From the NCBI GenBank assembly GCA_037501455.1, contig CM074865.1, positions 39,414,501 to 39,478,500 of the forward strand: a DNA stretch of 64,000 nucleotides, written 5' to 3'. A program made the position numbers and the translations under genes. The notes beneath the pieces are model-generated. The model did not search any database and had not been told where the DNA came from. It worked only from the letters and a program-made list of their open reading frames with translations. This stretch comes from Lantana camara (lineage: Eukaryota > Streptophyta > Magnoliopsida > Lamiales > Verbenaceae). Below, in pieces: positions 434 through 64,000 of the stretch (positions are counted from its first letter, which is position 1; each line of letters starts with the position of its first letter).

Positions 434-2286
434 GTGATAGCGAGTTTGCAAGGCTCGACTATCCACGACATGGTGTGTGTAGAGGGCATGACCCTCTAGA
501 CACGGAACTCCTTCCACCACTAATCTCCTAGTGGCTTCGGGGGTGATCCCAACAATGTGAGGATAATTCAGGAGTTACCCGTCAGCCCTTGCTTTCCCGG
601 TTGGCTCAAGAATTACCCTCGGGCCCACGTGCAATCATGTACTCGCCAAACTTGCTCGAAAACCATGACAATCAATACTTTCATGCTTGAAAGATTCATT
701 ACTTTGAAAACGTTTATAAATATAATATGTTTTGGCCGAAAACTCACACATAAGGGTTGTAGGGTTTATTTTACCAAAACCAAACCTCACCTTTCTTGCA
801 AAATAAAATAAAGAAGCGTTCTAAGGAGCTTGCTCCCCGTCCACGCCCTCGTGACCTGTGCAAATACGACGTACATTCATGAGAAATGACCTAAAATGAC
901 CAAAATAGGACGAACGGCGAAAACATGTCGAGACGATCACGAAAATGCAATGTGGGATTATAACTTTTCGTTTCACATCATATTAACACATATTATAGCA
1001 ATTCGGGGTCAAAGAAGTCGTTGGATCGAGGGGTCAAAATCGTAATTTTATGCAGTGAATTTTGTTCTGTCAGCCCCTTGGGAACGGCCGTTCCAGGTTT
1101 CCTTTGTAACTGGGAACGGTCGTTCCCGTTGCCCAGAAAAGCGCGGCAACGTTTTTCCATTTTAAAAGCGCGCCTTAGCCGGGAACGGCCCTTCCGGCTC
1201 CAAGGCCAAAATGGGAACGGCCGTTCCCATAGTCGGCCGCGCATATTTTGAAAAGAGATGGGAACGCCCGTTCCCACCAAGCCTTGAGGCTGGGAACGGT
1301 CGTTCCCAGCTTCTGCAAATATGAAGAACAGGGCAAAACAGAGCAGAAGCTACGGCAAAAACACAAAGCAACAACAAATCCCATTTTTGATCCCCAAGAG
1401 CTATAATTTATGAAAGTATGATGCATACACATTCAAGAAGTGATAATATAACACTTAGACACTTAAACCATAAAATATCACCAAGAATTCATGATTTCAA
1501 GTGATGATCAAACTTGATCATCCTTGCCAAACTTTCAAGATTCCAAGCTAGAAATCATGCAATAATTCATGAAATAATCACTTGATCATGCTTCCATGTC
1601 CAATCAATCCATCTAGCAAATACTACTCAAACCCTAAGCATGTCAAATATGATCAAGAATCATGAATTTATCCAAACCAACCTTTGTAAGCTAGGAAATG
1701 AAGAATATGAATGAAGGTGATGATCAAGTTGCCAAAACTTGGATGATTTCTTGAGATCTTGATGATTGATTGGAAAAACTTCTTCCTTTTCTATTCTTCT
1801 TGATACCGAGAATGAGAGCAAATATGTTTGGCAAAGTTTGGATGAAATGAGCTCATGGAAGCTCATGGAAATGAATATACCGTGATTCATCCCTTGGAAA
1901 TGTGTGAAATTGCTCAAATTGCCAATAAATCCTTGAAGACTTTAAGTTATGCAATTAGGTATGCAACAATTTAAAATATGCTCAATCAAGTCCCTAAAAG
2001 TTTATGCAATTGAGTCCCTAGAGTTTTAGGAAATATTCAACTAGGGACAATTTGGTAATTTTATCACTCTCGGTAATTGATTTCATGCAATAAATATTTT
2101 TCGTGCCATGAAATAATATTTCCAATGATATGAATTTAAAGAATTGATATAAATAATGTTTCATGAATTTTTTAAAATGTGAATGCCACGTACGAATATA
2201 TTATAAATTAAAAGAAATAAAATAAAACCTACGCTCAACTCACACGTGGCGTGCTTACCTGTTCATCCGGAAACCGGGGCGTTACA
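434..2286 (-). mobile_element. Gypsy element A 3' LTR, far end deleted
   Basis: On the minus strand the LTR starts at 2286 with TGTAACGCCCCGG, directly after a purine tract (2287-2300) and the pol stop at 2325. It runs to about 434. The usual LTR 3' end of this superfamily in the window (GGGGTGCTACA) is absent. The sequence at 434 (GGTGATAG...) instead corresponds to the middle of related LTRs, compare 55535-55545 on the opposite strand, so roughly the last third is missing. A palindrome cluster lies at 1080-1307. Short ORFs here are not supported as genes. Confidence 0.8.
1080..1307. repeat. Six GGGAACGG-CCGTTCCC palindromes in three pairs
   Basis: Six 16-bp palindromes or near-palindromes of consensus GGGAACGGCCGTTCCC start at 1080, 1112, 1181, 1213, 1260 and 1292. 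They form three pairs, each with exactly 32 bp between starts (a 16-bp spacer), while gaps between pairs vary (69 and 47 bp). Spacer sequences differ but tend to hold a CAAGGCCTT-like core. The same motif and pair spacing occur in LTR C at 35862-36053. Confidence 0.9.
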
Positions 2287-2300
2287 ACTCTCCCCCCCTT
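2287..2300 (-). other. Polypurine tract of gypsy element A
   Basis: Read on the minus strand this is AAGGGGGGGAGAGT, immediately upstream of the LTR start TGTAAC at 2286. It is the expected plus-strand primer site and fixes the element orientation and the inner LTR boundary. Confidence 0.85.
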
Positions 2301-2324
2301 AGAAGAATCTGGTCCCCAGATTCT

Positions 2325-5300
2325 CTAGTCTTGCTCGAACAACTCCGGGTGGAACCGTTTCATTTTATCCTCTGTTTCCCAAGTGGCTTCCTCGGTCTTG
2401 TCACTTCTCCACAATACTTTAACCATGGGAATCCTCCGGTTTCTCAATTCCTGAAATTTCCGATCCATAATCTTAACCGGTCTCTGAATAAATGACAAAT
2501 TCGGTTCCAGCTCAACTTCTTCCACGGGGAGAATCGTAGTCTCATCGGGGTAATATTTCCTCAGCTGAGATACGTGGAACACGTTGTGAATTCCCGTGAG
2601 ACTCGGTGGTAGGTCCAGTCGATAGGCTACCTCGCCTATTCTTTCAAGAATCTCGAACGGACCTAAATAGCGAGGATTCAGCTTTCCTCCTTTCCCGATC
2701 CGGGTGAAACCTTTCCTTGGTGACACCTTCAAGAATACCCGGTCACCCACTTCGAACTCTAGATCCCTTCGGCGCTTATCAGCATAGCTCTTCTGTCTAT
2801 CTTGCGCGGCTTTCATCCGTTGTTGAATCGTTTGAACCTTTTCAATCATAGCCTGAACGACTCTGGAAGGCCTCTCGAATCTTTCACCTTTCTTTACCCC
2901 TTCCTGTTTCGACCACTTCCACTCTTCCAAGTCGAAGAACAACGGAGATCGGCACTTTCTTCCATAAAGTAACTCGTAAGGAGCCATCCCTATCGAAGCC
3001 TGAAAGCTGTTATTATAAGCAAACTCTATCAAGGGAAGCTGTTCTGACCACGAGTTCTGAAAATCCATCGCGCAAGCCCGAAGAAGATCTTCCAAATACC
3101 TGATTAACCTTTCCGTCTGACCGTCCGTTTGAGGGTGAAAAGCTGTACTAAACTTAAGTTTCGTACCCAAGACAGCCTGTAATTCCTGCCACAACTTAGA
3201 AGTGAACCTCGGGTCTCGGTCAGAAACTATGCTCACCGGAATACCATGAAGTCGAATGATCTCCCGGTTATAGATTTCAGCCAACTTCGGGATCTTATAG
3301 GACATCCGGACCGGTAGAAAGTGAGCAGACTTTGTAAATCTATCCACAATTACCCAAATTCCATCAAACCCGCCTTTAACCTTCGGTAATCCGGAAACAA
3401 AGTCCATCGTTACTTGTTCCCACTTCCACTCGGGAATAGGTAACGGCTGTAGAAGTCCCGCGGGTTTTTGATGCTCAGCTTTCACTTTCTGACAAGTCAG
3501 GCAATGTTTCACATACTCTGCCACGTCTCTTTTCATCCCGTTCCACCAATAGTACTGCTTCAAATCCTTATACATTTTGTTTCCTCCGGGGTGGATCGAG
3601 TAGGCTGACTTGTGAGCTTCTTCGAGTAGGACCCGTCTCAATTCTTCAGGTACTACCACTCTGTTTTTAAACCGAAGCAACCCGGTCTCATCAAACCCAA
3701 ACGGACTTTCCGGGTCATCCTTAGCTTTACCGGCAAGCTTCTGTACCTCCGAATCCTGATTCTGAGCCTCGAATAACCGATACTTCAATTCCGGCTGAAC
3801 TGTGATATTAGAAACCCTAGCCTTTAACACAATCGGGACAACTTCCTCACTTTCCTTTATTTCTAAACTCGATACACTCGCCTTCCTGCTAAGTGCATCG
3901 GCGACCACATTGGCTTTCCCGGGATGGTATTTAATTGTACAATCATAATCTTCCAACTTTTCCATCCAACGCCGTTGCCTCATATTCAAATCCTTCTGCG
4001 TGAATAAGTACTGGAGGCTCTTGTGGTCGGTAAAAATCTCGAAGGAAGTCCCGTAAAGATAATGTCTCCATTTCCCGAGCGCAAAGATCACGGCTGCAAG
4101 CTCTAGGTCGTGTGTCGGATAATTCCTTTCGTATTCCTTTAGCTTTCGAGAAGCATAGGCGATCACTTTTCCTTTCTGAGTCAAAACACAACCTAAGCCT
4201 TCTTTAGAAGCATCTGTATACACTGCATACTCTTCTGAACCTTCGGGTAAGGTTAATACCGGAGCTGAGACTAATTTTTCTTTCAGAAAATTAAAGCTTT
4301 GATCACACTTTTCGTCCCAGACAAATTTAACATCCTTCTTTGTCAACCGGGTTAAGGGTGCAGCAATCTTAGAGAAGTCCTGAACAAATCTTCTGTAGTA
4401 ACCGGCCAACCCCAAGAAGCTTCTAATTTCCGAGGCGTTCTTTGGTTTCTCCCACTTAAGCACGGCCTCAATTTTCGAGGGATCGACTTCCAATCCTTTT
4501 CCTGAAATCACATGCCCCAAGAAGGAAACCCGATCTATCCAAAATTCACATTTACTGAACTTAGCAAATAACTGATGCTCTTTCAGAGTCTGAAGAACGA
4601 GCCTGAGATGTCTCGCGTGCTCCTCGGCTGTTTTTGAGAAGACCAGAATATCATCAATAAATATCACCACGAACTTGTCGAGGAAAGGCCTGAATATCCG
4701 GTGCATCATATCCATGAAAGCTGCAGGGGCGTTAGTTAATCCAAACGGCATAACCACGAACTCATAGTGCCCGTACCGAGTATTGAATCCCGTCTTTGGA
4801 ATGTCCTCTGCTCGGATTCGCAGCTGATAGTATCCCTGCCTTAAATCCAATTTCGAATACACCTTAGAACCCTGGAGTATATCGAACAACTCCTCGATAT
4901 GTGGGAGAGGATACTTGTTCTTAATAGTCATCCTGTTCAACTCCCTGTAATCGATGCACATTCTTAGAGTCCCGTCCTTTTTCTTTACAAACAATACCGG
5001 TGCTCCCCACGGCGAAGAACTCGGCCGAATGTACCCAACTTCCAACAAAGCCTCAAGCTGCACTTTTAATTCCTTCAACTCAGCTGGAGCCATCCGATAA
5101 GGAGTCTTTGAATACGGCTCAGCATTCGGAAAAAGATCAACCACAAATTCAATCTCTCGCTCAGGAGGCAAAGAATCCAATTTCTCTGGGAATACTTCGG
5201 GATATTCCTTTACCACTTCTGTGTCCTCCAATTTCACCTGATCTTTGGGCTTGTTCAGAACATAAGCAATGAATCCGGTAGCCCCGTCCCTGACTAACCT

Positions 5301-5424
5301 CTGAGCCTCTGAAAATGAAAGTAGGGGTACAGTCTTCGAAGTACAGCCCGTAGTAACTTCTGAACCCAACTGAACCTTCTTAGCCCGGCAATCCACGGTA
5401 GCACAATGCCTGTACAACCATTCC
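2325..5424 (-). CDS. Gypsy (Tekay-like chromovirus) pol, 5'-truncated but open
   Basis: A single open frame covers the end of the aspartic protease ([12 protein letters not shown]), reverse transcriptase ([12 protein letters not shown]; catalytic FIDDILVF near residue 306 of the open frame), RNase H ([10 protein letters not shown], about residue 454), the integrase zinc finger (HPGG...CLTCQK, about 665-700), the integrase core (MDF, SDRD, QTER, about 725-823) and a C-terminal chromodomain ([15 protein letters not shown]). It would encode reverse transcription, integration and chromatin targeting for a Ty3/gypsy element. No stop or frameshift interrupts it, unlike gypsy B. Gag and most of the protease are lost: at about 5423 the frame runs into the TRIM array, and its most distal ATG (5582) lies in TRIM sequence, giving a chance 52-residue N-terminus. 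With no 5' LTR it cannot be autonomous. Confidence 0.92.
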
Positions 5425-7244
5425 ATCCCACATCGGTTGGGAAGGAGAACGAAGTCCTCCTTATAAGGGGGGATGGAAACCTTTCCTTGCAGACGCGTTT
5501 TCCCAGTGGCCCAACCCATTGGGAGGAACAAATCCGTGAGGCCGTTTCGATTAAGGGCGTGCAAAGCGGACAATATCTGCATACTGGGTCGGTCCTGTAT
5601 TGTTACAAATGGTATCAGAGCCGGTGCCAGGAAGCTGATGTGTCAAGTCCTCAGCGAGGACGCTGAGCTCCTCTTAGGGGGGGTGGATGTGCGCCCATCC
5701 CACATCGGTTGGGAAGGAGAACGAAGTCCTCCTTATAAGGGGGGGATGGAAACCTTTCCTTGCAGACGCGTTTTCCCAGTGGCCCAACCCATTGGGAGGA
5801 ACAAATCCGTGAGGCCGTTTCGATTAAGGGCGTGCAAAGCGGACAATATCTGCATACTGGGTCGGTCCTGTACTGTTATAAATGGTATCAGAGCCGGTGC
5901 CAGAAAGCTGATGTGTCAGGTCCTCAGCGAGGACGCTGAGCTCCTCTTAGGGGGGGTGGATGTGCGCCCATCCCACATCGGTTGGGAAGGAGAACGAAGT
6001 CCTCCTTATAAGGGGGGGATGGAAACCTTTCCTTGCCGACGCGTTTTCCCAGTGGCCCAACCCATTGGGAGGAACAAATCCGTGAGGCCGTTTCGATTAA
6101 GGGCGTGCAAAGCGGACAATATCTGCATACTGGGTCGGTCCTGTACTGTTACAAATGGTATCAGAGCCGGTGCCAGGAAGCTGATGTGTCAGGTCCTCAG
6201 CGAGGATGCTTAGCTCCTCTTAGGGGGGGTGGATGTGCGCCCATCCCACATCGGTTGGGAAGGAGAATGAAGTCCTCCTTATAAGGGGGGGATGGAAACC
6301 TTTCCTTGCAGACGCGTTTTCCCAGGGGCCCAACCCATTGGGAGGAACAAATCCGTGAGGCCGTTTCGATTAAGGGCGTGCAAAGCGGACAATATCTGCA
6401 TACTGGGTCGGTCCTGTACTGTTACAAATGGTATCAGAGCCGGTGCCAGGAAGCTGATGTGTCAGGTCCTCAGCGAGGACGCAGAGCTCCTCTTAGGTGG
6501 GGTGGATGTGCGCCCATCCCACATCGGTTGGGAAGGAGAACGAAGTCCTCCTTATAAGGGGGGATGGAAACCTTTCCTTGCAGACGCGTTTTCCCAGTGG
6601 CCCAACCCATTGGGAGGAACAAATCCGTGAGGCCGTTTCGATTAAGGGCGTGCAAAGCGGACAATATCTGCATACTGGGTCGGTCCTGTATTGTTACAAA
6701 TGGTATCAGAGCCGGTGCCAGGAAGCTGATGTGTCAAGTCCTCAGCGAGGACGCTGAGCTGCTCTTAGGGGGGGTGGATGTGCGCCCATCCCACATCGGT
6801 TGGGAAGGAGAACGAAGTCCTCCTTATAAGGGGGGGATGGAAACCTTTCCTTGCAGACGCGTTTTCCCAGTGGCCCAACCCATTGGGAGGAACAAATCCG
6901 TGAGGCCGTTTCGATTAAGGGCGTGCAAAGCGGACAATATCTGCATACTGGGTCGGTCCTGTACTGTTATAAATGGTATCAGAGCCGGTGCCAGGAAGCT
7001 GATGTGTCAGGTCCTCAGCGAGGACGCTGAGCTCCTCTTAGGGGGGGTGGATGTGCGCCCATCCCACATCGGTTGGGAAGGAGAACGAAGTCCTCCTTAT
7101 AAGGGGGGGATGGAAACCTTTCCTTGCAGACGCGTTTTCCCAGTGGCCCAACCCATTGGGAGGAACAAATCCGTGAGGCCGTTTCGATTAAGGGCGTGCA
7201 AAGCGGACAATATCTGCATACTGGGTCGGTCCTGTACTGTTACA
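5423..7244 (+). mobile_element. Tandem TRIM retrotransposon array (7 LTRs, 6 internal segments)
   Basis: Head-to-tail units of 272-273 bp. Each has a ~193-bp LTR (TGTGCGCCCATCC... to ...CTGTTACA) followed by an 80-bp internal segment with a PBS (TGGTATCAGAGCC, e.g. 5610-5622) and a polypurine tract (TCTTAGGGGGGG). LTR starts are at 5688, 5961, 6234, 6507, 6779 and 7052; the first LTR lacks its first ~8 bp and ends at 5607; the last ends exactly at 7244. This is (LTR-internal)6-LTR, a multimeric TRIM. Units differ by only a few bases. No protein is encoded, so TRIMs depend on other elements. A likely promoter is CCTTATAAGG in each LTR. Recognisably related is the solo TRIM LTR at 54642-54852. 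Confidence 0.92.
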
Positions 7245-11047: not shown

Positions 11048-11133
11048 TCAAAAGCACTATTCAAAAGTACTATTCAAGATTACTATTCCAGATTACTATT
11101 CATGATTACTATTCACAGGTTACTATTCACATG
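11048..11133. repeat. Short ACTATTCA direct repeats (~13-bp period)
   Basis: Six copies of (T)ACTATTC(A/C) follow each other every 13-14 bp. The same block is in the other family-B LTRs (about 31035-31120, and inverted at about 48803-48890). Isolated copies of TGAATAGT recur elsewhere in the LTR. It lies about 2 kb from the LTR start and downstream of the TATA box, so it is probably in the transcribed part. Confidence 0.8.
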
Positions 11134-21780: not shown

Positions 21781-21793
21781 ATTTTACCTCGAA

Positions 21794-37000: not shown

Positions 37001-37190
37001 CCATTAACCCATTACTTCTCAAGTTGTCATACAAGAATTTATATTTTATATTTTCCATTTTAGCTCATTAAGTCACGTATTTAATAAATGTTGAGATTTA
37101 AACACATCAAAGGGAATTAAATCACATAAGTGCGTAACGTAATCTCTCTCGTGACGCATACCTGTACGATTTATCGGACGGGGCGTCACA
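34059..37190 (-). mobile_element. Gypsy element C 5' LTR (3132 bp)
   Basis: Minus strand TGTGACGCCCCGTCC...GGGGTGCTACA. It is bounded by the PBS on the inner side and by LTR F sequence on the other. Its palindrome cluster (35862-36053) has the same motif as gypsy A, but the LTR ends differ strongly, so it is not the partner LTR of A. Short ORFs within are not supported. Confidence 0.88.
35862..36053. repeat. Six GGGAACGG-CCGTTCCC-type palindromes in three pairs (LTR C)
   Basis: Copies start at 35862, 35894, 35930, 35962, 36006 and 36038. Every pair is 32 bp apart (16-bp spacer), and gaps between pairs are 36 and 44 bp. Some copies have changed on both arms, e.g. GGGAAT..ATTCCC at 35862 with arms still complementary. 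Confidence 0.88.
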
Positions 37191-44329: not shown

Positions 44330-44520
44330 TAGCGTATATTATATATATACATGCACATGTACGTACACAACACACACCACATGCATGCAGACACACACGT
44401 TCACACACATGCACAAACACCATATATTTCTATGCATTAACTATATATATATATATATACCATGCATATTATTATATATATACACAAACACATGCATTTT
44501 AATGTAATATATATATATGT
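44330..44520. repeat. TA- and CA-rich microsatellite tract
   Basis: Several (TA)n and (AC)n runs interrupted by CATGCATG words, within the solo LTR. Probably neutral slippage. Confidence 0.8.
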
Positions 44521-44694
44521 ATCTATTGCATGTAACTAATCATAAAAGAATATATCAATTATATGCATGGGAATTAAATACATGCAGCTCCACACGTAAA
44601 CATACAATTTCCATTCATCACAATTTAATACATATTATGCATGTATGCACGTAGCTGCTGAAATTCCAAAACAATTATCAAATCTCAGTTGCAT

Positions 44695-44813
44695 GACACG
44701 GCGGTGTTGGTTTTCAATTCAAAATGAACACGGCCGTGTCCGATTAATTTTCCAAAAACGAAAACACAACATGGCCATGTCCATTTTAGTTCAAATCTTG
44801 ACATGGTCGTGTC
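44695..44813. repeat. Four GACACGGCCGTGTC palindromes in two pairs
   Basis: Copies start at about 44695, 44727, 44768 and 44800. Pair spacing is 32 and 32 bp, with 41 bp between pairs. One copy is AACATGGCCATGTC, where both arms changed together and the palindrome is kept. Confidence 0.85.
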
Positions 44814-46827
44814 AAGTCATCTTGTTCGAAGGAATTTGCAGCAGCAGCAGCTTCTACTCCAACAAAAATAGGTTGATCAAGGCTGGAAAAAGCAAGGTAG
44901 TAATGCAGCATAACGAGGGCAACAAATGCACAAAGAGTTCAGGCCAAGACATGCACAAATTCAAGCCAAAACACCCCAAAACTGACAGCAATACGTACAA
45001 CAGGTATGCAACAAATTTTCAAGCCTAAATCTCATCCAATATGCCTCTAAATGATGGTTAAATGCAAGGAAATAACACAGCATAGCAGGGCAGAAATTTA
45101 AGCACACTAAACTGGTCAATTCCAAGCAAGAATTATGCTCAAAACTCACAAAACTGACAGCAAATGAGTAACAACAAGTAGCAGCGTGCAACAGTTCATT
45201 TCAGGCTCAAACTCAATCATAATGCATCTAAAATGAAGGTTTAAGCAGAGCACCATGAAATCTGATCATTTACCATGCATTTCATGCTAAAATTCATGCA
45301 AAACTTCATTAAAACAGCAACATATTGACAGCAACTAAGAGTTGTGACAGCAGTTAAGTTTTGAGCCCAAAATCCCCCATTTTTCTTTCATAAGCTCAAG
45401 TTCATTAATGGTAGAAGTTAATACACATAACCACCATGTATTTAATGCAAAGAAACGAGATATAAGAACATAAATGAACTCATTCTCTAGCTTAGAACTC
45501 ATAATATACACATATGAGCATGTATTCAAAATTTTGGAGAAAACCTAACTATTCATGCCTTTCTCCAATCATGCATAAAACCTCAAGTATAAGACACAAA
45601 ATGGAGCATATATTGAAGCACAAATCATAAGGATTACAGATCTTACCTCGGATTGTTGTAGATCGAAGAAAACTAGAAGATCTTGAGCGAATCTTGAGCT
45701 TGAAGATGATGAATAGTAAAAATCTCTCTTCCTTGCTCTTGGCTGCTAAATCTCGTGTGAGGGAGGAGGAAATGAGAGAGATATGTGGCTAGAAAATGGC
45801 TTAAGTTCAAAGAATTGGTGAATGATGGGTCCCATAGCTCAAATACATAGGTCATAGGGGTGTAAGAAGGCACGAGGGGTTGAAATTCGCGTCGTCGGAG
45901 GTCTAAACGGTATCGAAAAATTATGAAACTTGTTCCATTACATCCGGATCATCAAAAGGAGTTGAGCGCCGAAGATGAGACTCGAATCCGAGTGTCGTAG
46001 CTCAAGATACAAATTAAAATGTACACAAGTGTACTAAAATGACTCATTTTTCAAATGAGTCCAAAACTTTCAAAAAGTTGCAATTAAGTCCAAGAACCAA
46101 ATTTCAATTAAGTCCACATATTATAAAATTATACAATTACATCCTTAAATCACGTTTAGCACATAATTCACGAAATTAGCATGTTCGGGAAAAAAATTCA
46201 TATATTATAAATTCACATATTACAAGATTTCAAATAATTTACTCTTAGGCGCATTTTCGCATTTAAATCAAATAATTCAAGTAGTTTCATATAATTACGT
46301 AATAATTAAAATAACATACCATTGCTTAATTAATTAATTTAAAACGCAAATAACACTCTCGTTACAACGTACCTGTAGGGCCGGACGAGCGGGATGTTAC
46401 AATTCCATACATACAATCAATAAGCATAAACCTGTACAGAGTATACACGTTTACACATTACAAACATAACTGAAATAGAAACTTAATAAACTTAACAAGT
46501 GACACTGACTTGACAGACATAACACACCACCGCCTAGCTCGAACCCCAACAACCTGCACCTCCAAACTCAAAACATAGGTGGGGTGAGGGTCAGTCCACT
46601 GATTGAGTGAGGGGGCTGAACACACACACACGATACATAGTAAGGAGCAGAGCACATATCAAAAGAAAAACCATGAACCGGGAGTAGGGTTTTGCATACC
46701 AAAGTCATTTTCAAACCAAACGTAAATTTATACTTATTCGAATCATAACAAACAGAACATACTCGTATCATATCAAAAGATAAAGCTCCTATACCGTTTC
46801 ATAATCAGCATAACAGAATATATCTTA

Positions 46828-48940: not shown

Positions 48941-49258
48941 TGTAACATCCCGCTCGTCCGGTCGTACAGGTACGCACTCTCGAGAGTGTTTCCTACGCAC
49001 TTTATTTATTTATTTATGCCTTTACGTGATTATTTAATTGTTTATATGCCTAATTGATGATTTGAATAATTATTTATTTCACTTTGTTAAGTAATTTGTT
49101 CGTTTTGACCCCTTTTGATTCCCCATTCGATCCGTGTGACCCCGTATTTGTTCCTAAGTATGTGACTACATGATATGCATGAAATATGTTTGTTATGAAT
49201 TTGTCTACGTGTTCGTTTTAAGTTTTTGAGTTTGTTTGATATGGTTTTAAACCGTTTT

Positions 49259-52200
49259 TGTAGCACCCCGTACGTGAGGCACCACATCCCCCGCACTATG
49301 GCTCAACACGAGTAACGAAACAGCTAATCCGCACCCATATCAAACCATAGCGAACGGGAGACAAACATAAAAACCTTCCTAAGCCAGGCGGAGCTAGACC
49401 CTGCAATGAAAACCAATCAACAAAATGTAATGCATAGCAAAGCCAAAGTCCAATCATACAAACCATAAGCAGAATTTGGGCTCTTCAGGCCTCTTTCAAA
49501 TCATAGCAAATCCCAGTAAAATCAATTCAATAATAATTTCATAAATATTCAAGTTCAGGATACCATAGGATCGAGTCAGACATAATTCCAATACATGAGT
49601 GAGTGCAAAGACTCTCCTAACCTAACTCGACCAACTTAAAGACTTCAACACCCCCGCCTAGCCCGAAACTCCAAAGTCAAACCTACACACTAAAAGATTG
49701 GGGAGGGAGAGGGTCAGTCTCTAGAAGACTGAGTGAGCAGGAGCGATATACATATATAGAAACATGCACATGCAAGTCATAAATTCCGAACAAGGTTTTA
49801 TTTGAAATTAGTTCCCTAAAAGGGCAAGAGAATGATTAATCAATGTTTGGATTTTATGACTAATCATATTAATTCATTATATTCATAAATCATACATAAA
49901 CATAAGGCTCGACGAGTGAGCGTGCACAATCTCCAACCAAACTCCGACCGTGTACGACAAATATCATTAATATGTTGATTAGGTGTTCATGCAATATATC
50001 ATAATACATGCAGACCATATATCATAAATCATGATCGTTTGGGCAATCCGTGTCCCGGCCTTCCCGCACGGTGCATAATCATAACATAACATAACATAAC
50101 ATAAATCATAAATCATTTCCAACCTTCTTCCTCTGGGTGGTGGACGGGTTAGCAAGACCCGACCACCTCATACATAGGCCAATGGGGTTTCATGACTCCC
50201 CCAAGGGAACTCAGCTCCCATTCCCCGCTAAACCTCCTAGCGAGGGCCGGTATCACCGTACATAAGTTGAGACTAGTACAAGGGATCACCGTCGGCCCTT
50301 GCCTCCCCGGATAGCCACTTGCACTAAGTCTCTGGGCCCGTGAACATATCATAAATGCATAATCTCGCCAAAACATTTCAGTTCATAAGTACATATCATA
50401 ATTCATAAATCATTTGAAAAGGGCTTACTCGATCAATATTTACTCGATAACTTTACTTTAAAAGTAACATATATATAATCATAAGGTTTTGGCCAAAGCT
50501 TTTCACATAAGGGTTTTAGGGTTTGTTACATAGCTAGAACAAAAACACCCTCACCTGAACCGTGACGAAACAAGGATACGAGTAACCAAGTGCCCGAAGG
50601 ATCACGATCTCTCCACCTTAGAGATAAACTGAACAAAGACAACATGACGTGTTCGTGACACTCAAGACTCTAAATGAACCATATATGACGCACGGCAATG
50701 CTCAAGCATGATATGAAGGCATAAAGATGATATTAGGTCATGAAAGTGTTCATGTGCACTATTAAGGCATTTAAATCATATAACCACGTCATTCACTTAT
50801 TCATTCATTTTCATTCAATTCATCAATTCATATCTCCAATCAATTTAATTCAAGAATTCAAATAGGAGCATAGAACATGTTCAAGCTCTCCCAACATGCT
50901 ACTACATACTTCATATTACATAAGGTAGCATATTTCCAAGGTTTGAGAACAAGAAGGAATCATATGCTATAGAAAATGAGTTACGCGATTCATAAACGAC
51001 ATATAAACACACATAAACGGCATTAAGCAAAAGCATGCCTATAACTCATCCAAATGCCATGAAATTAAACCACAATACTCTCAACATATAGCAAAACAAG
51101 TTCATAGTTCATCACAAAAGGAGATCAAGTCATTAAGGAGGTGAAACAAATCAAAAACCGAAAAGGAAGCAACAAGGACTGCGCAAGGGAAGGGACACGG
51201 GGGTGTCACACTTCTTAGCCAAACTGAGCCACGACCGTGGATCAGTACAGACCTGCCCAGAAGGTGTGACACGCCCGTGTCTCACACTTAAGTGTAAATG
51301 AGACACGGGGGTGTCACGGTACAGAACTTAAAACGTTCACAGAGTTTTACCGGAAAAACTGATCTCATACCAAATCAATCCAAAAGCATACCAAATCAAC
51401 TCCAAATGACATGAAACTTAATATAAAACATATTTAGCATGTTAGGAACATATTTCATTTAGAGTGAAAAGGCTAAATCACACATTAAGAGCATCTAAAT
51501 CATGCGGCAAAACTGGGTCGCCAAAATCGAACATAAGAGCCCTATTGTTTCAATCAGCTATAATCAAGTACTTAGGGGTTGAATTTGGATCTGAAACTTT
51601 GGGGAATGCATGCTAACATACTAAAAAACTAATATAATTCATATATATGCAAAATGGCACGAATTAAAGCACATTAGGGTGACCAACAACCACACAATTG
51701 TAACAGCAGCAAGTCTGTCAAAGATCATGCATAAGAACAGGCCATGTCTTTCGGTTTTGAGGCTTAAAATGGATCCAAATACTTAAAAAATGAATGTTAA
51801 CATATAGAGTAATGAGTTTACATAATATCCATGCAATTTCACATGAAAATAAGATCATTTGATCAAGCAACAAAGCAAAATGAACAGCAGCAGTTCGAAA
51901 AACAGGGGAAGCAGTTTGATCATCAAGTTTGGAGCTCCATATCTCATAATTTCATCAAAGGGTCAAGAGATAAAATCCTCCTAATATCATATACTATCAG
52001 TTAGGAAAGAAATAGGCCAAGAAACAAGCTCATATGATCATGTATAAGCAAGAAAATCAGCTACACAATCAAATAGGTCACAAGAGCAAAAATCCCTAAA
52101 AGTTCATACCAACTCATCACCCAAACCCTAATCAAATCTGATCCAAATCATGATGTAAGTAGATGAAATCAAGCATAATAGAGTAAAGAAGACATAAATA

Positions 52201-53137
52201 TTCATACCTTGAAGATTAGAAGAAGAAGGGAGGTGATTTGAGCTCAAAATCACAAGAATGGCCAAGGGTTTTCTCTCCTTTCTTCTCTCTTTCCCTCTCG
52301 ATCAGTTGCAGCTGCAAGGGGAGATATTTTGGCTCGGTTTTTGATGCTAAAAGGGAGGAGAGAGGGTTAACTCAAGGTACACAAGTCATGGTTAAGCTTT
52401 GGTTAGGTTAGGTTGAGTAAAAAGGGTCCCACCATGAAGACTAGTCAACAAAATGAGCTCTTCTTGCACGAGTTATCCGTTACGGTTGGATTTCGAAGGT
52501 CTTAATGATTTCAAAAAGGTATGAGGCTTGTTCCATTGTCTCCGAATCGTCGATACGAAGGTAATGGAGGTGACGGAATTCAAATCCGAATTCCCGAGCT
52601 CAAGATACCACGTACGGAACCAAGGGTGCGCTAATTGCTCGTTAGCCCCCGACTTGGTTCCACAATCAAAATTAAATTCGTTAACACATCAAATGAATCC
52701 GAAAACATAATCCGAGCATATAGGCATGTTCATAACACACATATTTATGACATACTAAATTTCCATACCATTCCGATATCATTACATATAAGAACGAAGT
52801 ACAAATAGAACACTCATGTTCATGAATGAATTCATAACGTTATAAATTAATTACTAAAACTTAAATCCCATTTTAATTAAATTAAAACCAACTAATAACA
52901 TGTTGAAATTAATTAACAGAATTACCGAAATAGTTAAGGTAACATGAACCCTTAATTAAGAAATTAAACGATAAATATCAAGTTGAAATAAAATGAATTA
53001 AATTAAAGTAACAATAGTTTATAGTTTAAATCAAATGTAAACATTTATAAACAATTAATCATATAATTAAATAATTAAATTGCGCAATTTATAAACAAAT
53101 ACACCACATTATTTAACTGAAAAACTGGGGTGTTACT
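49259..53137 (-). mobile_element. Solo gypsy LTR (3879 bp) inside the D LTR
   Basis: TGTAGCACCCCG...GGGGTGTTACT with TSD GTTTT on both sides (49254-49258 and 53138-53142). The uninterrupted target is visible in the 3' LTR at about 62970 (CCGTTTTATTTG). The last base is T instead of the expected A, a terminal point change. It contains a palindrome cluster (51194-51315). No coding region. Confidence 0.93.
51194..51315. repeat. Four GACACG-CGTGTC-type palindromes in two pairs
   Basis: Starts at 51194, 51228, 51268 and 51302 (the second is the variant CCACGACCGTGG). Pair spacing is 34 and 34 bp. The spacer of the second pair contains the perfect palindrome ACACTTAAGTGT (about 51284-51295). Confidence 0.83.
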
Positions 53138-53968
53138 GTTTTATTTGTTAGGGACATAAGGGCCTAACTTGTTTTAGCGCACCTTGTGTTCCGGAAGCCG
53201 TAAATTGGGCTTGGGAATTCAGATTTGAATTCCGGAAGAAGCTTCGGACTCGTAACGAAGAGCACGCCTCTTGTGATAGATTTGCCGTGTTCACCCGTTT
53301 TAATCATATTCGACCCGTTTCTTATCCGAATCGCCCCATACTTGAACCCATATGACCCTAAATTAACCCCCTATTTGCTTCCCATTTCGGACCCAGCCAA
53401 GGAAAAAAAAGAGAAGCAGCAGTTTATACCGAGAGAGATGAGGTAGGGGAAAATACTATTCACTTTGGCCATTTCTTGATCAATACATATCCGATTCGCC
53501 TCAAATTCGAAAGGTTAGTCCATGGTTGTATTCTCTATCCTTTCCTCTTTCTTTGGACTACTTATTTGCTAAATTTCATTGAGAATTGATTGAGATATGG
53601 TTAACTAGATGAATATTAAGGGTTTGGAGCAATTTGATGAGTTTGGCATGATTTCTCTTGATTCTTGTTTGTTTAATGCATTATTTATGAACCTAAGACA
53701 TCCAATATGAATTATATGAACTCATTTCAGTTGGTAGTTGCATTTAATGAAGGATTCAATTAATGCTTTGAATGAAAAATGAAGAACAAGTATGTTTGAT
53801 CCATTGTCCTCCATTCCTTGCATGGTTGGTTCGATTTTTGCATGTTATATGACTTCAATATGATATATATTTGATGTATTATCTTTCCCTTGCATGCTAG
53901 CATGAATTAGGATGGTTTTTGGTTGAGATTTCGTCATTTTTCCCCTGTTTTGCTGCTGTCGCGTAACT

Positions 53969-54068
53969 GGTCGCGGCCGAGATCGCGACCAGTTCATTTT
54001 TGGTCACGACTGCGACTATGGTAGTGGCCGCGGCCATTTTCAGTTCATTTTTGGTAGCGGCCGTGACC
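53969..54068. repeat. GGTCGCGGCCGCGACC-type palindromes in two pairs (D 5' LTR)
   Basis: Copies start at 53969, 54002, 54020 and 54053, with pair spacing of 33 and 33 bp. The counterparts in the 3' LTR start at 63843, 63876, 63893 and 63926 with the same spacing. The first copy is expanded (GCCGAGATCGC centre). Confidence 0.8.
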
Positions 54069-54641
54069 CCATTTTGGCCCAGTTTAGAGTTGTGTTTTTG
54101 TTGTTGGTTGTTTTTCGGTTTGTTCGTGCTTTGCTTGTCTTTCCTTGCTCTTATATGATTAATATATAATATGTATGATATGTTAACATGTCAAATATGT
54201 GTTTAGTGTTATGTTATGATTTTGTGGCGTGTTTTACGTGCTCGTTTTTTATGTAGGGCTTCATACATGTAATGTGCTACCTTAACATGCGTATATGACT
54301 TCATACTTCGTTTATGTGCCTTGAATGATTTTTCTTTGTTCTTATATGATATGATTTATCTTCTTAACATGTTGTATGATATGTCACGCATGTTATATGA
54401 ATTTTGTGAATTTATTTTAGTAAGTTTGATGCTTTTACATGTGATATGTGAGCTAATGTGCGTTATATGCCTTTTATGTGCTAGCTTGCATCAATGTGTC
54501 ATTTTCTGGCCTTGTTTGATATTTGTTTGACTCTTTTGTCATATGTATGCATGCCTAGTATGTTCTATGACGTGTTATGTTCGATGCATGAACTTTATGG
54601 ATTTCATTTTGCATGATTTTGGAGACATATGATTTAATATG

Positions 54642-54852
54642 TGTAACAACCCGAAAACCCGCTTGTCGATATTGTCCGCTTTGGTGGGCTAAGCGACAAC
54701 ACCCTCACGGTTTTGTTTCTCCTACTGGAATTTAAACCCGAAGGTGCCCAGCAAGGAAAAGACCTCAATAAGGGAAAGGTATCCACCCCCTTATAAAGGA
54801 GGCTTTGTTCCCCTCTCCAACCGATGTGGGATAAGCACCTTAGGCTATTACA
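54642..54852 (-). mobile_element. Solo TRIM LTR (211 bp)
   Basis: Plus-strand TGTAACAACCCG...GGCTATTACA with TSD ATATG on both sides (54637-54641 and 54853-54857). It shares CCCACATCGGTTGG, a TTATAA-containing promoter-like segment and AAAGCGGACAATATC with the tandem TRIM array at 5423-7244, in opposite orientation and diverged. No internal segment remains. Confidence 0.92.
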
Positions 54853-56355
54853 ATATGAACTTGCATGTGTTATATATTAATGCATTGCATCTATTATGCA
54901 TCTTTTGCATTTGTTTGCATATGCCGAGCGTCTATATGGTTCGTTTGTGAGTCTAAGTCCGTCTTTCATCCTTTGTTTTATTCAGAGCTTTGTTTCGAGG
55001 GAAAGGAGGTGGTCTCTTAGGCGTGTTCCAGTTCATTTTGTTCGTTGTGGTCGACAAGGTGAGGTTTCTTTCCTTTAGTTATTACGACCTACAACCCTTG
55101 ATGTGATTTAAGCTAGCATGTGACCTATGTATATGTATACGTATTTAGATATGTGTTTGATACATATTTTGTGGGATTTTGGCCCCTTTTGTTATGAAAT
55201 ATTTGAAAACGCTTTTACATATATTTATGAATATTTTCGTTTGTTTGTTTTGAAAAGAGTTGGTGTGTGTGTTTTGAAACCGCCAGTTATGTTTTGAAAA
55301 TTATGATCTTTCGAACAATTTGAACAATTTGATTATTTTGATTAGGCCCCGGAGATTTGTGTGAAGGAGACCCGGGACGGTGCGGGCCGTCGGGTAGTCC
55401 CTAGCATGCTCTCCACACTTAAGGATCAACTCGAAACCCACTAGGAGGTTAGTGGGGGATGGAATCCTTGTGCGTGAGTGTCATGAAACTCACGACCCTG
55501 ACATGGGAATCGATGGTTAGGGTAGGAACAACCCTTCTATCACCGGAGTAGAGGTATGTGTGTTTGAATTATGTTTTCTTATGATTTATGATTCCGATTT
55601 TGAGTATGAACGGAGTTAGGTGGTCTGAAATTCGTCCTCACCGAGTTGTGTGTTTGATTATGAAATTAATTTGTGAAACGGGAGTGGACTTCTAATTACT
55701 AAAATTGGTTGATTTTGGCCTTCGGCCTTAACTCTTTTCTATATATACTATCACGGGTTAAAATGTCTTGGCATGTAAAAACCACACCCCGATTCATAAA
55801 TTTCCTTATTTTGAATATGCTCTGAATTACGTATATGTATGTGTGAGTGTGTTAGCCCCCTCACCAGTCTTTAGGACTGACCCCTCCTCGTTGTTTTCTT
55901 TTTCCCCTTTTATTTCTTTGAGTTTGCAGGTTCGGGTTCCGATTCGAGCTAGGCGGTGGTTTCTTTTGGGTTGGTCGAGTCTACTTCGGGTCTTTTGCAT
56001 CTTTACTTTTCTGCATTGGTACTATGTATAAGATATTTATGGAATTTGTTTAAATTTGTTTTGAAATTAGAATTTTAAGGTTATATGATTTATTTTGCCT
56101 GGGATGGGCACCATGTGTATAATTTGTAATAATTCAAGCTTGTGTGTTGTATTTGAATCCTGGTGCTTCCGCATTCGATTTTGATTTTATTATGTGCACT
56201 CTGTATTAGGGTCTAGACCGCCTAGCTAATGTGTGGGTTTTTGTTTGTCACCCGTTCGCTGTAGCTTGATGCGAGTGCGGAGTCTCCATTTACACGTGTC
56301 GAGCTATAGTGCGGGGGGGTGTAGTGCTCTGCGCTCCGGGGTGCTACATCTAAAG

Positions 56356-59003: not shown

Positions 59004-62000
59004 TGTAGCACCCCGGAGCGCAAGGCACTACACCCCCCGCACTGTAGCCCGACACGTGTAACGAAATGGAATCTCCGCACACGTATTAGACTACAGAGAA
59101 CAGGTGACAAACAAAAACTCACACACTAGCTAGGCGGTCTAGACCCTAATACAGAGCCCACAGAAAAAATATCAAAATCAAGTGCGGAAGCATCAGGAAC
59201 AACATATACAATCATACATGCTCAAATTTATCCAAATTATACATATCATGCCTATGCAAGGCCAAATAGATCATACTAGGTTTTAAGTTCAAATTATGAA
59301 TCATAACTTAAACGAATTTCATAGATATCTTAATCATAAAACAAATGCTAAATTGAAAAGATGGAAAGACTCGAACAAACTAAACAAAAGACTTCTTCCT
59401 AGCACGTACCGACCTGCACCTCCAAACTCAACAAAACAGAAGGGGAAAAAAGAAGACAACGAGGAGGGGTCAGTCTTAAAGACTGGTGAGGGGGCTAACA
59501 CACTCACACATACATATACATAGAGCAGAGCATATTCAAAAATTAGAAGGTTCATGAACCGGGGCGTGGTTTTTGCAATCTAAAACATTTAACACGTGAT
59601 ATAATTATGAGGCAACAGAGTTAAGGCCGAAGGCCAAAATCAACCAAATTTTTGTATTTATGAATCCACTCCCATTTCACAAACTAAGTTCAAAATCACG
59701 CACACACGACTCGGCGAGTACGAGCCATGGACCACATAACTCCGTTCAGAAATCAAAGCTTAAATCAAAACAAAACATAATTCAGAATCAGACAAACATA
59801 CCTCTCCTCCGGGTGATGGCAGGGTGGCGCCACCCCAACCATCGGACAAATAGTATGGTCGTGAATTTCATGACACTCACGCCCAAGGACTCCTTCCCCC
59901 ACCAAGCCTCCTAGTGGGTTCAGGGTTGATCCTTAAGTTGAAGACCGTACTAGGGACTACCCCGATGGCCCACTCCGTCCCGGGTCTCCTTCGCACAAAT
60001 CTTCGGGGCCCATCTAATTGTTCAAATTGTTCGAAAGTTCTTAATTTTCAAAATCCAACATAATTTTCAAAACATAACTCGCGGTTTCAAAACACACACA
60101 CCAACTCTTTTCAAAAGAAACAAACGAAAATATTTCTTACATATACATAAAAGCATTTTCAAATATTTCATAACAAAAGGGCCAAAATCCCACAAAATAC
60201 GTATCAAACATATATCTAATTACTTATACATATACATAGGTCACACGCGGGCTTAAATAACATCAAGGGTTGTAGGTCGTAATAACTAAAAGAAAGAAAC
60301 CTCACCTTGTCGAACCAACCAAACGGAAACCAACCAAAGCACACCTAAAGGACCTCCTCGACACCAAAGGAATGAAGCTCTGAACAAGACAAAAAGCAAA
60401 GGATGAACTTAGACTCAAACATGAACCATATAGACACTCGGCATATGCGTACGGATGCAAAATATGCAATGCACTTCATATAAATTCACACTTAAGCACA
60501 TCGAGGCAAACAACGAAATATCAAACAGATAACTAACAAATTAAACTCATAACGCATCAATTAAAACCATAACTTATCATATAATAGCATATCAAGAGCA
60601 TTCATAAATTCTAAGTTCATTCAAGGGCAACAAATGCAAAAGATACGAACAAAACGCAACAAGGTGACATTTAGTGCATATAAGTTTACATCAAGCCATA
60701 AATCACATAATTCACTTCAAATAAATTCATAAAATTCACATAACATGCATAACATATCATACAACATATTATAAATGCATATAGTTCATATAGGAGCAAG
60801 GAGATTACATGCAAGGCAAGCAAATAAAGTACAAAGTCATTCATGCGCGTAGGAGTACACATCGAATCAAATAAGGCATGAATCACGTCAAACGAATCCA
60901 TAAATCTAATACAATAATTATAACACATAATTTAACATTTTAGTACAGAATGGGGATCAAATTAGGGGTGGGAGAAACAAGAAACAAGCAAAAAGAAACA
61001 AGAAAACGAAGTTCGGAACAAAAGGGAGCCACTGCCCTAAATCCACCCCGGTGTATTTTTTTCAAAAGGAGAATCCACCCCCGTGGATTTAGGTCAGAAA
61101 GTTCCAGGAGGGGGCTGCCTCAAATCCACCCCGGTGGATTTTTTTCAAAGGGAAAATCCACCCCCGTGGATTTGGGTCAGGGGCCAAATTTTCTAGAAAC
61201 AAGCTTGCAAACTCCTTCAAAACTCCAAACAAACCACACAAGCACCAAGCTAACACATAATGGAAGGTATATGCAACAAATATACAAGAATTCATGCCCT
61301 AATTCATGCAAAAACCAAAGCTAAAGTGAAGGAAAAGGAAGAGATGCATCAACAAGTTCATGCTCTTGCAAAAGCTTCAATATCCAACAATGGCACCTAC
61401 ATGAATCCTTATCTAACATGCAAACCAAGATCATATAACTCAAATAGGATGTCATAGGAGCAAATATCATGCATCAAGCTTAAAGAATTTACAAGGAAGC
61501 ATGCTAGAATCAAGAAATTTCTACAAACCCTCACTGTTCATACCATATACCATATGTCAATCAAACATGGATGTAATCTTGAAAAATGAAAGTAAAAATG
61601 ACAAAAAAGGCATGGAGAACACAAATATAAGCTTACCTCTTTGATTGGGAGAGAAATGGTGGGGCTTGAGTTCAAATCTTTAAGCAAATGAGTAGGAGCC
61701 TTCTCTTATCTTCTATTCTTCTTCCTTTCTTCCACTTGGGGCTGATTTCTTGTCTTGGGAGAGGGGGGTACGAAATGGATCAGGTAAGGGGGAGAGAGTG
61801 GCTTAACTCAAGCACAAAAGTCATGGTTTAGCTTTGGTTAGGGTTAAAGTGGGGCCCACAAAGCAAGAGTAGTCAACAAAGGTGGCTCTTAGCGCAAGGT
61901 GCTCGTTCCGGCTGAATTTCGGAGGATCAAATGAGCTTATAAAAATACAAAGTTGGGTTCCTTTGTTCGTTATGAGTCCAATGTATCTTCCAAAATTCAA

Positions 62001-62400
62001 ATCTGAATTCCCAAGCTCAAGTTACGCCTTCCGGAACACGAGGTGCGCTAAATAAGTTAGGCCCTCGAATCCCTCACAAATCCCGTTTTTACAAAACGAG
62101 CCAAGAACCACATAAAACAACCTCTAAAACATATAACGAGCATATCGTCATATTTATAACTCACGTAATTCACATATATCAAAAATTCGCATGAAACGGG
62201 ATCAAATTCGGACACATACGGAGCAAATTACACGACATGCATGCATAAACATTAAAACTCAAGTTATAAGTTAAACAATTAATACAATTAATCACATTAG
62301 CAATAAAATAACACATAATTGCATAATTAAAATAACTAAACGCGCACGTAGCTCTCTCATAAAAACGTACCTGGGATGGCCGGACGAGCGGGATGTTCCA
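59004..62400 (-). mobile_element. Solo gypsy LTR (3397 bp) inside element D
   Basis: TGTAGCACCCCGGAGCG...GCGGGATGTTCCA with TSD AGAAG on both sides (58999-59003 and 62401-62405). The end reads TTCCA instead of TTACA, one changed base. It resembles the D LTR in length and landmarks. Palindrome cluster at 61039-61173. No coding region. Confidence 0.92.
61039..61173. repeat. Four AAATCCACC-GGTGGATTT palindromes in two pairs
   Basis: 20-bp copies start at 61039, 61071, 61122 and 61154. Both pairs are exactly 32 bp apart; 51 bp lie between pairs. Spacers within pairs begin TTTTCAAA(A/G). Confidence 0.88.
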
Positions 62401-62405
62401 AGAAG

Positions 62406-62660
62406 ACCCCCAAAGTTGAAATGAGAGATCGAGACTTCTTTAGAAGCATCTCTTACAAGGGGATTTACTTGGATTCGGTAGGTACCACCAAGTTACCGGG
62501 ATACGTGAAGTCTTCCTTATTCCTAATTAGGGGAGTAATATCCCGAGGGATCTACAGTTGCCTAGATCAGAGTGGCGCAACGGAAGCGTAGAGTGGAGTT
62601 CAGAGGCGTTCCAGATCTCGCTTTAGGACCTGAGGACAGGTCCTTTTGAAGGGGGAAGTT
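62406..62660 (+). other. 3' end of element D interior with polypurine tract
   Basis: No recognised coding sequence. It ends TTTTGAAGGGGGAAGTT (62644-62660) directly before the 3' LTR, the plus-strand primer site. It resumes element D after the nested solo LTR. Confidence 0.8.
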
Positions 62661-64000
62661 TGTAACATCCCGCTCGTCCGGCCGTACAGGTACGCACTCT
62701 CGAGAGTGTTTCCTACGCACTTTATTTATTTATTTATGCCTTTACATGATTATTTAATTGTTTATATACCTAATTGATGATTTGAATAATTATTTGTTTC
62801 ACTTTGTTAAGTAATTTGTTTGTTTTGACCCCTTTTGATTCCCCGTTCGATCCTTGTGACCCCGTATTTGTTCCTAAGTGTGTGACTACATGATATGCAT
62901 GAAATATGTTTGTTATGAATTTGTCTATGTGTTCGTTTTAAGTTTTTGAGTTTGTTTGATACGGTTTTGAACCGTTTTATTTGTTAGGGACATAAGGGCG
63001 TAAATTGGGCTCGGGAATTCGGATTTGAATTCCGAAAGAAGCGTCAGACTCATAACGAAGAATGGAAGATTTGGAACCTGACTTTGTAATTTTTGAAGCC
63101 CGTTTGATCCTCCGAATTTTGCCCAAAACACGCCCCCTGTGACATATTTGCCTTGTTCGCCCGTTTTAATCATATCCGACCCGTTTCTTATCCGAATCGC
63201 CCCATACTTGAACCAATATGACCCTAACTTAACCCACTATACACCCATTTGCTTCCCATTTCGGACCCAGCCAAGAAAAAAGAAGTGAAGCAGCAGTTTA
63301 TACCGAGAGAGAGGAGGAAGGGGAAATCACTATTCACTTTGGCCATTTCTTGATCAATACACATCCGATTCGCCTCAAATTCGACGGGCTAGTCCATGAT
63401 TGTATTCTCCATCCTTTCCTCTTTCTTTGGTCTACTTATTTTCTTAATTTCATTGAGAATTGTTTGAGATATGGTTAACTAGATTAATAGTAAGGGTTTG
63501 GAGCAATTTGATGAGTTTGGCATGATTTCTCTTGATTGTTGTTTGTTTAATGCACCATTTATGAACCTAAGACATCCAATATGAATTATATGAACTCATT
63601 TCAGTTGGTAGTTGCATTTAATGAAGTATTCAATTAATGCTTTGAATGAAAAATGAAGAACAAGTATGTTTGATCCATTCTCCTCCATTCCTTGCATGGT
63701 TGGTTCGATTTTTGCATGCTATATGACTTGAATATGATATATATTTGATGTATTATCTTTCCCTTGCATGCTAGCATGAATTAGGATGGTTTTTGGTTGA
63801 GATTTCGCCCTTTTTCCCCTGTTTTGCTGCTGTCACATAATTAGTCGCGGCCGCGATCGCGACCAGTTCATTTTTGGTCTGACTGCGACCATGGTAGCGG
63901 CCGCGAACATTTTCAGTTCATTTTTGGTAGCAACCGCGACCCCATTTTGGCCCAGTTTCGAGTTGTGTTTTTGTTGTTGGTTGTTTTTCGGTTTGTTCGT
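62661..64000 (+). mobile_element. 3' LTR of element D, first 1340 bp
   Basis: TGTAACATCCCGCTCGTCCGGCC..., colinear with 48941 onward once the nested solo LTR is removed. It preserves the empty target site of that solo LTR. It includes the palindrome pairs at 63843-63941 and runs off the window. Confidence 0.92.

Follow-up and report, generated by a model that had tools for sequence, protein, structure and literature searches.

A 64,000-nucleotide stretch of the Lantana camara genome (assembly GCA_037501455.1, 1.27 Gb; contig CM074865.1, positions 39,414,501 to 39,478,500 of the forward strand), referred to here as the window, consists of a nest of plant long terminal repeat (LTR) retrotransposons. 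Six of its LTRs, namely LTR A, LTR C, the solo LTRs S44, S51 and S61 and the 5' LTR of element D (Table 1), carry four to six imperfect palindromes each, and these form 14 pairs of nearly constant spacing while their letters differ between LTRs. The centres of paired sites are 32 bp apart in ten pairs, 33 bp in two and 34 bp in two (mean 32.4, standard deviation 0.7); the gaps between successive pairs (n = 8) amount to 18, 36, 40, 41, 44, 47, 51 and 69 bp (mean 43, standard deviation 13). The resulting centre-to-centre distances are 32/69/32/47/32 in A, 32/36/32/44/32 in C, 32/51/32 in S61 and 33/18/33 in the D 5' LTR, as well as, when read from symmetric positions, 32/41/32 in S44 and 34/40/34 in S51. 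The alternation of short and long gaps is strong when compared with permuted gap orders within the clusters (p = 1.15e-4).

A preliminary description, made from the letters of the window alone, had reported clusters with differing consensus sequences in A, C, the three solo LTRs and D, with pairs at 32 bp (A, C, S44 and S61), 33 bp (D) or 34 bp (S51) and between-pair gaps of 17 to 69 bp. The clusters and their differing consensus are borne out in all six LTRs, the gaps measured here span 18-69 bp, and the spacings hold in 14 of 14 pairs, with two blemishes: an extra palindrome in S51 (see below) and the 3' LTR of element D, whose second pair is clean at 33 bp but whose first is blurred by a lost base. 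The sites had been characterized as GC-cored palindromes of 14-20 bp. Many sites are imperfect, and the CGG-CCG core, found in some sites of A, C, S44 and D, is absent from the S61 sites and from most of those in S51.

In A, C, S61 and D, sites were assigned with a scan for the arm motif of the LTR in question; other matches are scattered, weak and at chance level. The same scan is less clean in S44 and S51, where it returns chance matches and misses one site in each, and the centres in these two LTRs were read from symmetric positions. A motif-blind scan recovered 9 of the 14 pairs (A 3/3, C 3/3, S61 2/2, S51 1/2, S44 0/2, D 5' LTR 0/2). Over the window it returned 8 pairs at 32 bp, 3 at 33 bp (two, at 22819 and 41411, in another element, the third in the D 3' LTR) and 1 at 34 bp, compared with 0.05, 0.05 and 0.1 pairs per shuffle at these distances in 20 Markov shuffles. 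Such spacings almost never arise in shuffled sequence. All three solo LTRs are in minus orientation and are flanked by target site duplications (TSDs); their 5' ends are thus the high-coordinate ones. Counted from the true LTR starts, the clusters occupy 0.98-1.95 kb and begin 0.98-1.82 kb in. This agrees with the 1.0-1.9 kb given earlier, although the solo starts had then been set at the wrong end, because the two ends of an LTR are inverted repeats of each other.

Site classes, homology and possible exchange among the LTRs

The sites fall into classes, of which GGGAAC is common to A and C, and GACAC to S44 and S51. At up to two mismatches, class sites stay within the LTRs of their own class, with one exception: the S51 site centred at 51234.5 matches ATCCAC. 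A frame GG-NNN-CGGCCG-NNN-CC, proposed earlier as shared by three types, fits A, C and D loosely, but more classes are covered by an inner AC....GT, which in D is GC....GC. Strings resembling ACACGG..CCGTGT are frequent in the LTRs of cotton and other plants. In LTR A the palindrome arms are 92% alike and the spacers only 0.19-0.38, the three spacers being no more alike than shuffled ones, which argues that the letters themselves are read, beyond their self-complementarity. Corresponding values for arms and spacers are 0.80 and 0.38-0.69 in C, 0.67 and 0.50 in S44, and 0.75 and 0.56 in S51; a smaller contrast outside LTR A would be expected if the pairs there had duplicated more recently. Spacers have no preferred orientation relative to transcription (rank 14 of 32). 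For comparison with the Sirevirus type of LTR palindromes, where the cluster forms a CpG island upstream of a conserved TATA box, the observed/expected ratio of CpG, relative to the rest of the LTR, is higher in three of the six clusters (A, S44 and D 5') and lower in C, S51 and S61. We note that on the sense strand of A, C and S44 the first site of a pair is often GACC-centred where the second has GGCC (5/8 versus 0/8, p = 0.026), a difference noticed post hoc and not relied on.

The LTRs had been called unrelated-looking; they are homologous. When the regions downstream of the clusters are aligned locally, each of the 15 LTR pairs scores above shuffled sequence. Identity within the local blocks is 68-74%, rising to 81% over 1,967 aligned bases for D and S61; the weakest block, between A and C, has a score of 49 where the best of eight shuffles reaches 38, with flanks about 68% alike. 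When these regions are aligned globally, identity drops to 43-60%, with D and S61 at 76%. In this closest pair the upstream alignment reaches to about 45 bp from the cluster, so the two clusters are at the same place, yet the palindromes differ (GGTCGC..GCGACC in D, ATCCAC..GTGGAT in S61).

Element A is a Ty3/gypsy chromovirus by its domain order with a C-terminal chromodomain (Pfam RVT_1, RT_RNaseH, Integrase_H2C2, rve, SH3_Tf2-1, Chromo; rve at 25.6 versus 32.6 bits and Chromo at 23.0 versus 25.1 bits are both under the curated cut-offs), and the gag of element D is of Ty3 type (Pfam). LTR homology ties C, S44, S51 and S61 to the same lineage type, and by sequence likeness the six LTRs represent divergent members of a single Ty3/gypsy chromovirus-type lineage, perhaps of the Tekay/Del clade, given the long LTRs and their TGTAACACCCC-like start. 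A further LTR family of the window, family B (10594-13147, 30581-33134 and 46828-48940), is a weak partial homologue of the other LTRs. It has no such palindrome pairs (a single pair at 21 bp occurs in one copy) and instead contains 13-bp direct repeats of the TACTATTCAAAAG type; in two of its copies, similarity ends at corresponding points, 10594 and 30581.

One LTR family read elsewhere in the genome (L012, L016, L022) combines pairs of the GGGAAC and ATCCAC classes, each at 32 bp. In L016 and L022, GGGAAC sites flank the ATCCAC module on both sides (one site of the L022 module was not detected). In their body these LTRs can be aligned with C (69-72% over 732-1,093 bp), and their ATCCAC module with that of S61 (75% over 137 bp in L012, 74% over 136 bp in L016, shorter pieces in L022). 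The sequence adjoining the module has no match to S61; short blocks 0.5-1.2 kb downstream do match. As the two classes coexist in one LTR and a shared module has unmatched neighbours, at least some of the class change looks like module exchange.

Occurrence elsewhere in the genome

The pattern ACGGCCGT-N18-40-ACGGCCGT, that is two copies 26-48 bp apart, occurs at 9,540 places in the genome, as opposed to 6 for the pattern read backwards. The first 50 distinct places in the list all lie on C1, and many belong to copies of the same families; of the 50, 27 have a distance of 32 bp, two of 28 bp and 21 of 41-48 bp; none falls at 26, 27, 29-31 or 33-40 bp. Eighteen distinct examples at 32 bp, when compared, consist of eight spacer groups. 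Pairs of CGGCCG at 26-31 bp number 1,733 versus 127; 35 of the first 50 listed are at 31 bp, and a crude rule assigns 27 of these to another class, CCCGGCCGGG.

An arbitrary sample of fifteen 10-kb stretches at round-number positions (150 kb) yielded 125 pairs of like palindromes at all distances. The commonest distance is 32 bp (11 pairs, two of them in an AGAGAA tandem repeat and one in a CCCGCG repeat), with none at 32 bp in ten shuffles. Clusters like those of the window are found with spacings of 32 bp (L025, L030, L037), 33 bp (L032) and 34 bp (L036), including two new classes: GGTAAC in L036 (34/50/34) and CCAAAC in L030 (32/37/32, with 4 and 3 of 12 letters deviating in its second and fourth sites). 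Other repeats, or clusters that lack 31-34-bp pairs, were also picked up by the cluster rule in L025 (one), L026-L028, L029 (three) and L030 (several). Close copies of A are represented by 40 listed matches at 94-100% identity, of which eight were read (L001-L008) and kept out of the spacing tally of other genome copies. For 14 clusters chosen for complete alternating site lists, a permutation gave 0 of 200,000; this value is descriptive only and is not used here, the set leaving out clusters with incomplete site detection or different patterns (L009, L010, L016, L020, L021, L023, L025, L030, L032, L037 and the A copies L001-L008). A nearly constant geometry with changing letters is widespread in the genome.

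Possible function and competing explanations

With pairing, spacing, site classes, LTR homology and coexistence of classes observed, the interpretation we prefer, at about even odds, is that the clusters are cis-regulatory modules of chromovirus LTRs, built of exchangeable cassettes with two dimer sites each. In such a cassette a 14-16-bp palindrome would occur twice at a distance of 31-34 bp, or about three turns of B-DNA, and a symmetric dimeric DNA-binding protein would sit on each palindrome. If the two dimers touch on roughly one helix face, the distance would be conserved even as the spacer sequence changes. The four outermost letters of each half-site (GGGA, TGAC, ATCC, GGTA, CCAA, GGTC) may select the member of a protein family, the inner AC or GC beside a G+C-rich centre being common to the classes. 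Cassettes would duplicate as pairs and pass between LTR families, so that specificity shifts and the architecture stays. The protein, with a putative role in transcription, would probably be encoded by the host, because the elements appear to have little room for it: neighbouring A-type LTR matches on the same strand lie 7.44-7.49 kb apart in 11 cases (8.48 kb in one more, while one gap of 8.36 kb separates two such neighbour pairs), and with an LTR of at least 1.85 kb this pitch leaves at most about 5.6 kb for gag-pol. The earlier suggestion of a co-evolving dimeric factor fits the arms and spacers of LTR A, but the contrast is weaker or absent elsewhere, and gradual co-evolution is not borne out in view of the coexisting cassettes and the shared ATCCAC module.

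Several observations weigh against the interpretation as dimer-site cassettes. Five of the 14 pairs were missed by the motif-blind scan and depend on reading with the class motif. Some sites are poor palindromes: of the 12 arm letters, as many as 3 deviate in A, C, S61 and D, and 5 in two sites (one in S44, one in S51). Pairing in S51 is not strict, because a further palindrome centred at 51289.5 (51284-51295) sits in the spacer of pair 2. Outside LTR A the arms are not always better kept than the spacers (S61 0.96 versus 0.88, D 0.67 versus 0.71). Spacers within one LTR are related (mean 9.1/16 versus 6.1 when shuffled); the pair is therefore the unit of duplication, and the pairs are partly duplicates and not independent of each other. 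Spacing is also looser in places: L030 has additional spacings of 30 and 31 bp, L025 has three successive sites at 32 bp, and recent A copies tolerate 33 bp, one pair being at 32 or 33 bp with between-pair gaps of 46-48 and 68-69 bp. With 10.5 bp to the turn, a spacing of 34 bp departs from three full turns by about 86 degrees, and a literature search for a plant factor with a CGGCCG palindrome gave only a Fusarium paper.

The main competing explanation places the function in RNA or single-stranded DNA, where the two palindromes of a pair would fold on each other into a hairpin with a 16-nt loop, which either serves the element in stability or packaging or is diced by the host into small RNAs, as has been proposed for palindromes of maize Sireviruses; we consider this somewhat unlikely. 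All six clusters are predicted to fold more stably than 200 dinucleotide shuffles do on average (z = -6.8, -6.9, -2.2, -3.5, -4.0 and -4.9), and the cluster fold is matched by 4 of 200 shuffles for S61, 1 of 200 for S44 and none of 200 for the other four. The predicted folds of S61 and S51 use pair-internal stems, whereas the predicted minimum-energy folds of A and S44 join sites of different pairs. Palindrome regions of maize Sireviruses were reportedly recognised as small-RNA hotspots by Bousios and co-workers in 2016. The region resembles the present one in being a palindrome-rich, fast-changing part of the LTR with hairpin potential, and differs in belonging to Copia elements. The literature likewise describes copia LTR palindromes as small-RNA hotspots (PMC5311732) and microRNA-like structure as concentrated in Copia LTRs, the latter in a 2023 maize study whose consulted sections give no obvious peak in Ty3 elements (PMC10760457). 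For a hairpin, however, complementarity between two arms is enough, and neither arm has to be a palindrome; the hairpin would account for symmetry and folding energy but leaves the same letters in all sites of LTR A, with unrelated spacers, unexplained. The RNA stem-loops of the preliminary description are neither favoured nor disfavoured: the clusters fold well, and cross-pairing between the members of a pair is no better than self-pairing, the two being about equal, and this comparison does not discriminate between DNA and RNA.

It is improbable, in our judgement, that the clusters are a neutral by-product, in which one ancestral pair was duplicated and carried along and the spacing is kept by descent only. 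The relatedness of spacers within an LTR and the duplication of pairs as units are in its favour, as are the homology of the LTRs, the spacers of A2, C2 and C3, which are 62-69% alike, and those of different families, which are slightly more alike than shuffled sequence (6.54 versus 6.01). But the between-pair gaps varied over the same time, several classes and all eight spacer groups of the 18 distinct examples keep 32 bp, and the arms of LTR A stay alike while its spacers do not. Dimerisation of genomic RNA through self-complementary sites of two RNA copies, for which any palindrome serves, would account for letters that change freely while symmetry is kept, and the RNA of the element carries LTR sequence at the 3' end at least, but we hold it to be very improbable, since it demands neither pairs of like sites nor a 32-bp pitch, like neighbours would favour folding within one molecule, and the LTR alignment contains no conserved TATA box by which to place the cluster relative to the transcript start.

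For the dimer-site cassettes, the nearest known system is the Sirevirus LTR palindromes or RM boxes (Bousios et al. 2010, PMC2829016), which, in the portions of that paper available to us, are CGG-CCG repeats reported to be specific to Sireviruses and missing from classic copia elements, with no common binding factor found; later studies put the weight on RNA structure. Both systems consist of clusters of short palindromes, several copies per LTR and mostly in the upper LTR half, with letters that vary between elements while symmetry is kept. Most Sirevirus families have a CGG-CCG core, which here occurs in some sites of A, C, S44 and D. A dyad-symmetric motif repeated in the LTR is likewise present here, with 4-6 sites in each of the six LTRs. 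The differences are the host, Ty1/copia there as opposed to Ty3/gypsy of chromovirus type here (domains of A, gag of D); the pair spacing of 31-34 bp, no fixed spacing being described in those portions; and the core, whose CGG and CCG abut here without a gap and which is lacking in the ATCCAC class and most S51 sites. In the literature covered (mostly titles and abstract openings, few subscription journals) no paper was recognised as describing paired palindromes in Ty3/gypsy LTRs. We thus found no earlier description of the pair geometry in chromovirus-type LTRs, LTR palindromes as such being already known from Sireviruses.

VANDAL elements are DNA transposons that encode their own sequence-specific protein. 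Their VANC anti-silencing target motifs, judging from the sections consulted (PMC5735166, PMC10398659), are comparable in that short motif arrays in non-coding parts of related transposons change in concert and recruit such a protein. The protein is element-encoded there, whereas no extra gene was seen here, in Pfam searches of 8 of the 14 open reading frames (ORFs) of at least 150 aa in the window.

We tentatively raise the possibility that two superfamilies of LTR retrotransposons have converged on one grammar, in which pairs of dimer sites keep a fixed pitch and their outer letters form an exchangeable address for members of a plant family of DNA-binding proteins. Cassettes would be swapped, and an LTR could carry two addresses at once, amounting to a combinatorial code. 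If so, retrotransposons might gain or lose host activators, or escape repressors, with the architecture unchanged. The pair geometry of 31-34 bp, kept through letter change and in another superfamily, would be a clue to a protein with definite quaternary structure, for which the several classes with matched spacing are ready DNA baits. Trading of cassettes in LTR control regions could also help to explain why relatives are active under different conditions.

Elements of the window and other dyad repeats

Borders of the LTRs were drawn from self-comparison and terminal motifs.

Table 1. Palindrome pairs and element features of the window (positions within the window; spacing in bp)
Feature	Positions	Strand	Remarks
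A pair 1	1080..1127		centres 1087.5/1119.5, spacing 32
A pair 2	1181..1228		centres 1188.5/1220.5, spacing 32
A pair 3	1260..1307		centres 1267.5/1299.5, spacing 32
C pair 1	35862..35909		centres 35869.5/35901.5, spacing 32
C pair 2	35930..35977		centres 35937.5/35969.5, spacing 32
C pair 3	36006..36053		centres 36013.5/36045.5, spacing 32
S44 pair 1	44694..44741		GACAC class; centres 44701.5/44733.5, spacing 32
S44 pair 2	44767..44814		centres 44774.5/44806.5, spacing 32; first site weak
S51 pair 1	51193..51242		heterotypic, GACAC and CCAC; centres 51200.5/51234.5, spacing 34
S51 pair 2	51267..51316		centres 51274.5/51308.5, spacing 34
S61 pair 1	61041..61088		ATCCAC class; centres 61048.5/61080.5, spacing 32
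S61 pair 2	61124..61171		centres 61131.5/61163.5, spacing 32
D 5' LTR pair 1	53969..54017		GGTCGC class; centres 53976.5/54009.5, spacing 33
D 5' LTR pair 2	54020..54068		centres 54027.5/54060.5, spacing 33
LTR A	434..2286	-	3' LTR of chromovirus; start TGTAACGCCCCGG at 2286; low end near 434 uncertain
pol of element A	2325..5642	-	reverse transcriptase, RNase H, integrase, Tf2-1-like SH3, chromodomain
LTR C	34059..37190	-	5' LTR, followed by TGGTATCAGAGC primer site
Solo LTR S44	42636..46401	-	TSD ATTCC
Solo LTR S51	49259..53137	-	within D 5' LTR; TSD GTTTT, by eye; one terminal base changed
Solo LTR S61	59004..62400	-	within D internal region; TSD AGAAG
D 5' LTR, piece 1	48941..49258	+	split off by S51
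D 5' LTR, piece 2	53138..56348	+	opens with TSD copy; then primer site and Ty3-type gag ORF
D 3' LTR	62661..64000	+	cut by window end; cluster at about 63843-63941

The eight ORFs searched with Pfam, taken from 14 of at least 150 aa, comprise six with retrotransposon domains and two with no domain. Among viral contigs, neither part of the pol protein nor either of two paired patterns had a match. The window also contains two adjoining tandem arrays (5423-7244, 273 bp x 6.7; 7244-9514, 422 bp x 5.4), the former starting within the open frame of the pol of element A.

Two other sets of dyads were excluded from all counts. The first consists of TTCCGAGGGAA/TTCCCTCGGAA dyads at 9915-10571, which run to a CACTACAAGAAAA terminus that we take to be the marker of a CACTA element; the dyad region (9915-10593) ends at this CACTA-type terminus on the minus strand. 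A second, identical CACTACAAGAAAA 13-mer is located at 37685-37697 and may be a chance match. The second set is the GTGCGGG array at 23286-23638, whose dyads are real but belong to the leader of another element and to tandem units of 58 bp. Its GTGCGGG-CAGT-CCCGCAC dyads, which resemble the Sirevirus CGG..CCG motif, alternate in spacing between about 24 and 34 bp and lie just inside the 5' LTR of the host element (LTRs 16398-18342 and 23958-25902; no ORF identified), the 5' LTR being that at 23958-25902.

Weaker dyad pairs of the GAGG..CCTC and GGGG..CCCC types, 33 bp apart, are found at 22819-22853 and 41411-41445; the two copies are homologous (75% alike), and dyads of these types were seen in L027 too. 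Finally, tandem repeats of a AGAGAGAA-CCCCG-TCTCTC dyad with spacings of 28-32 bp occur in L013, L017, L026 and L030, those in L017 at about 1.1 kb from a palindrome cluster.

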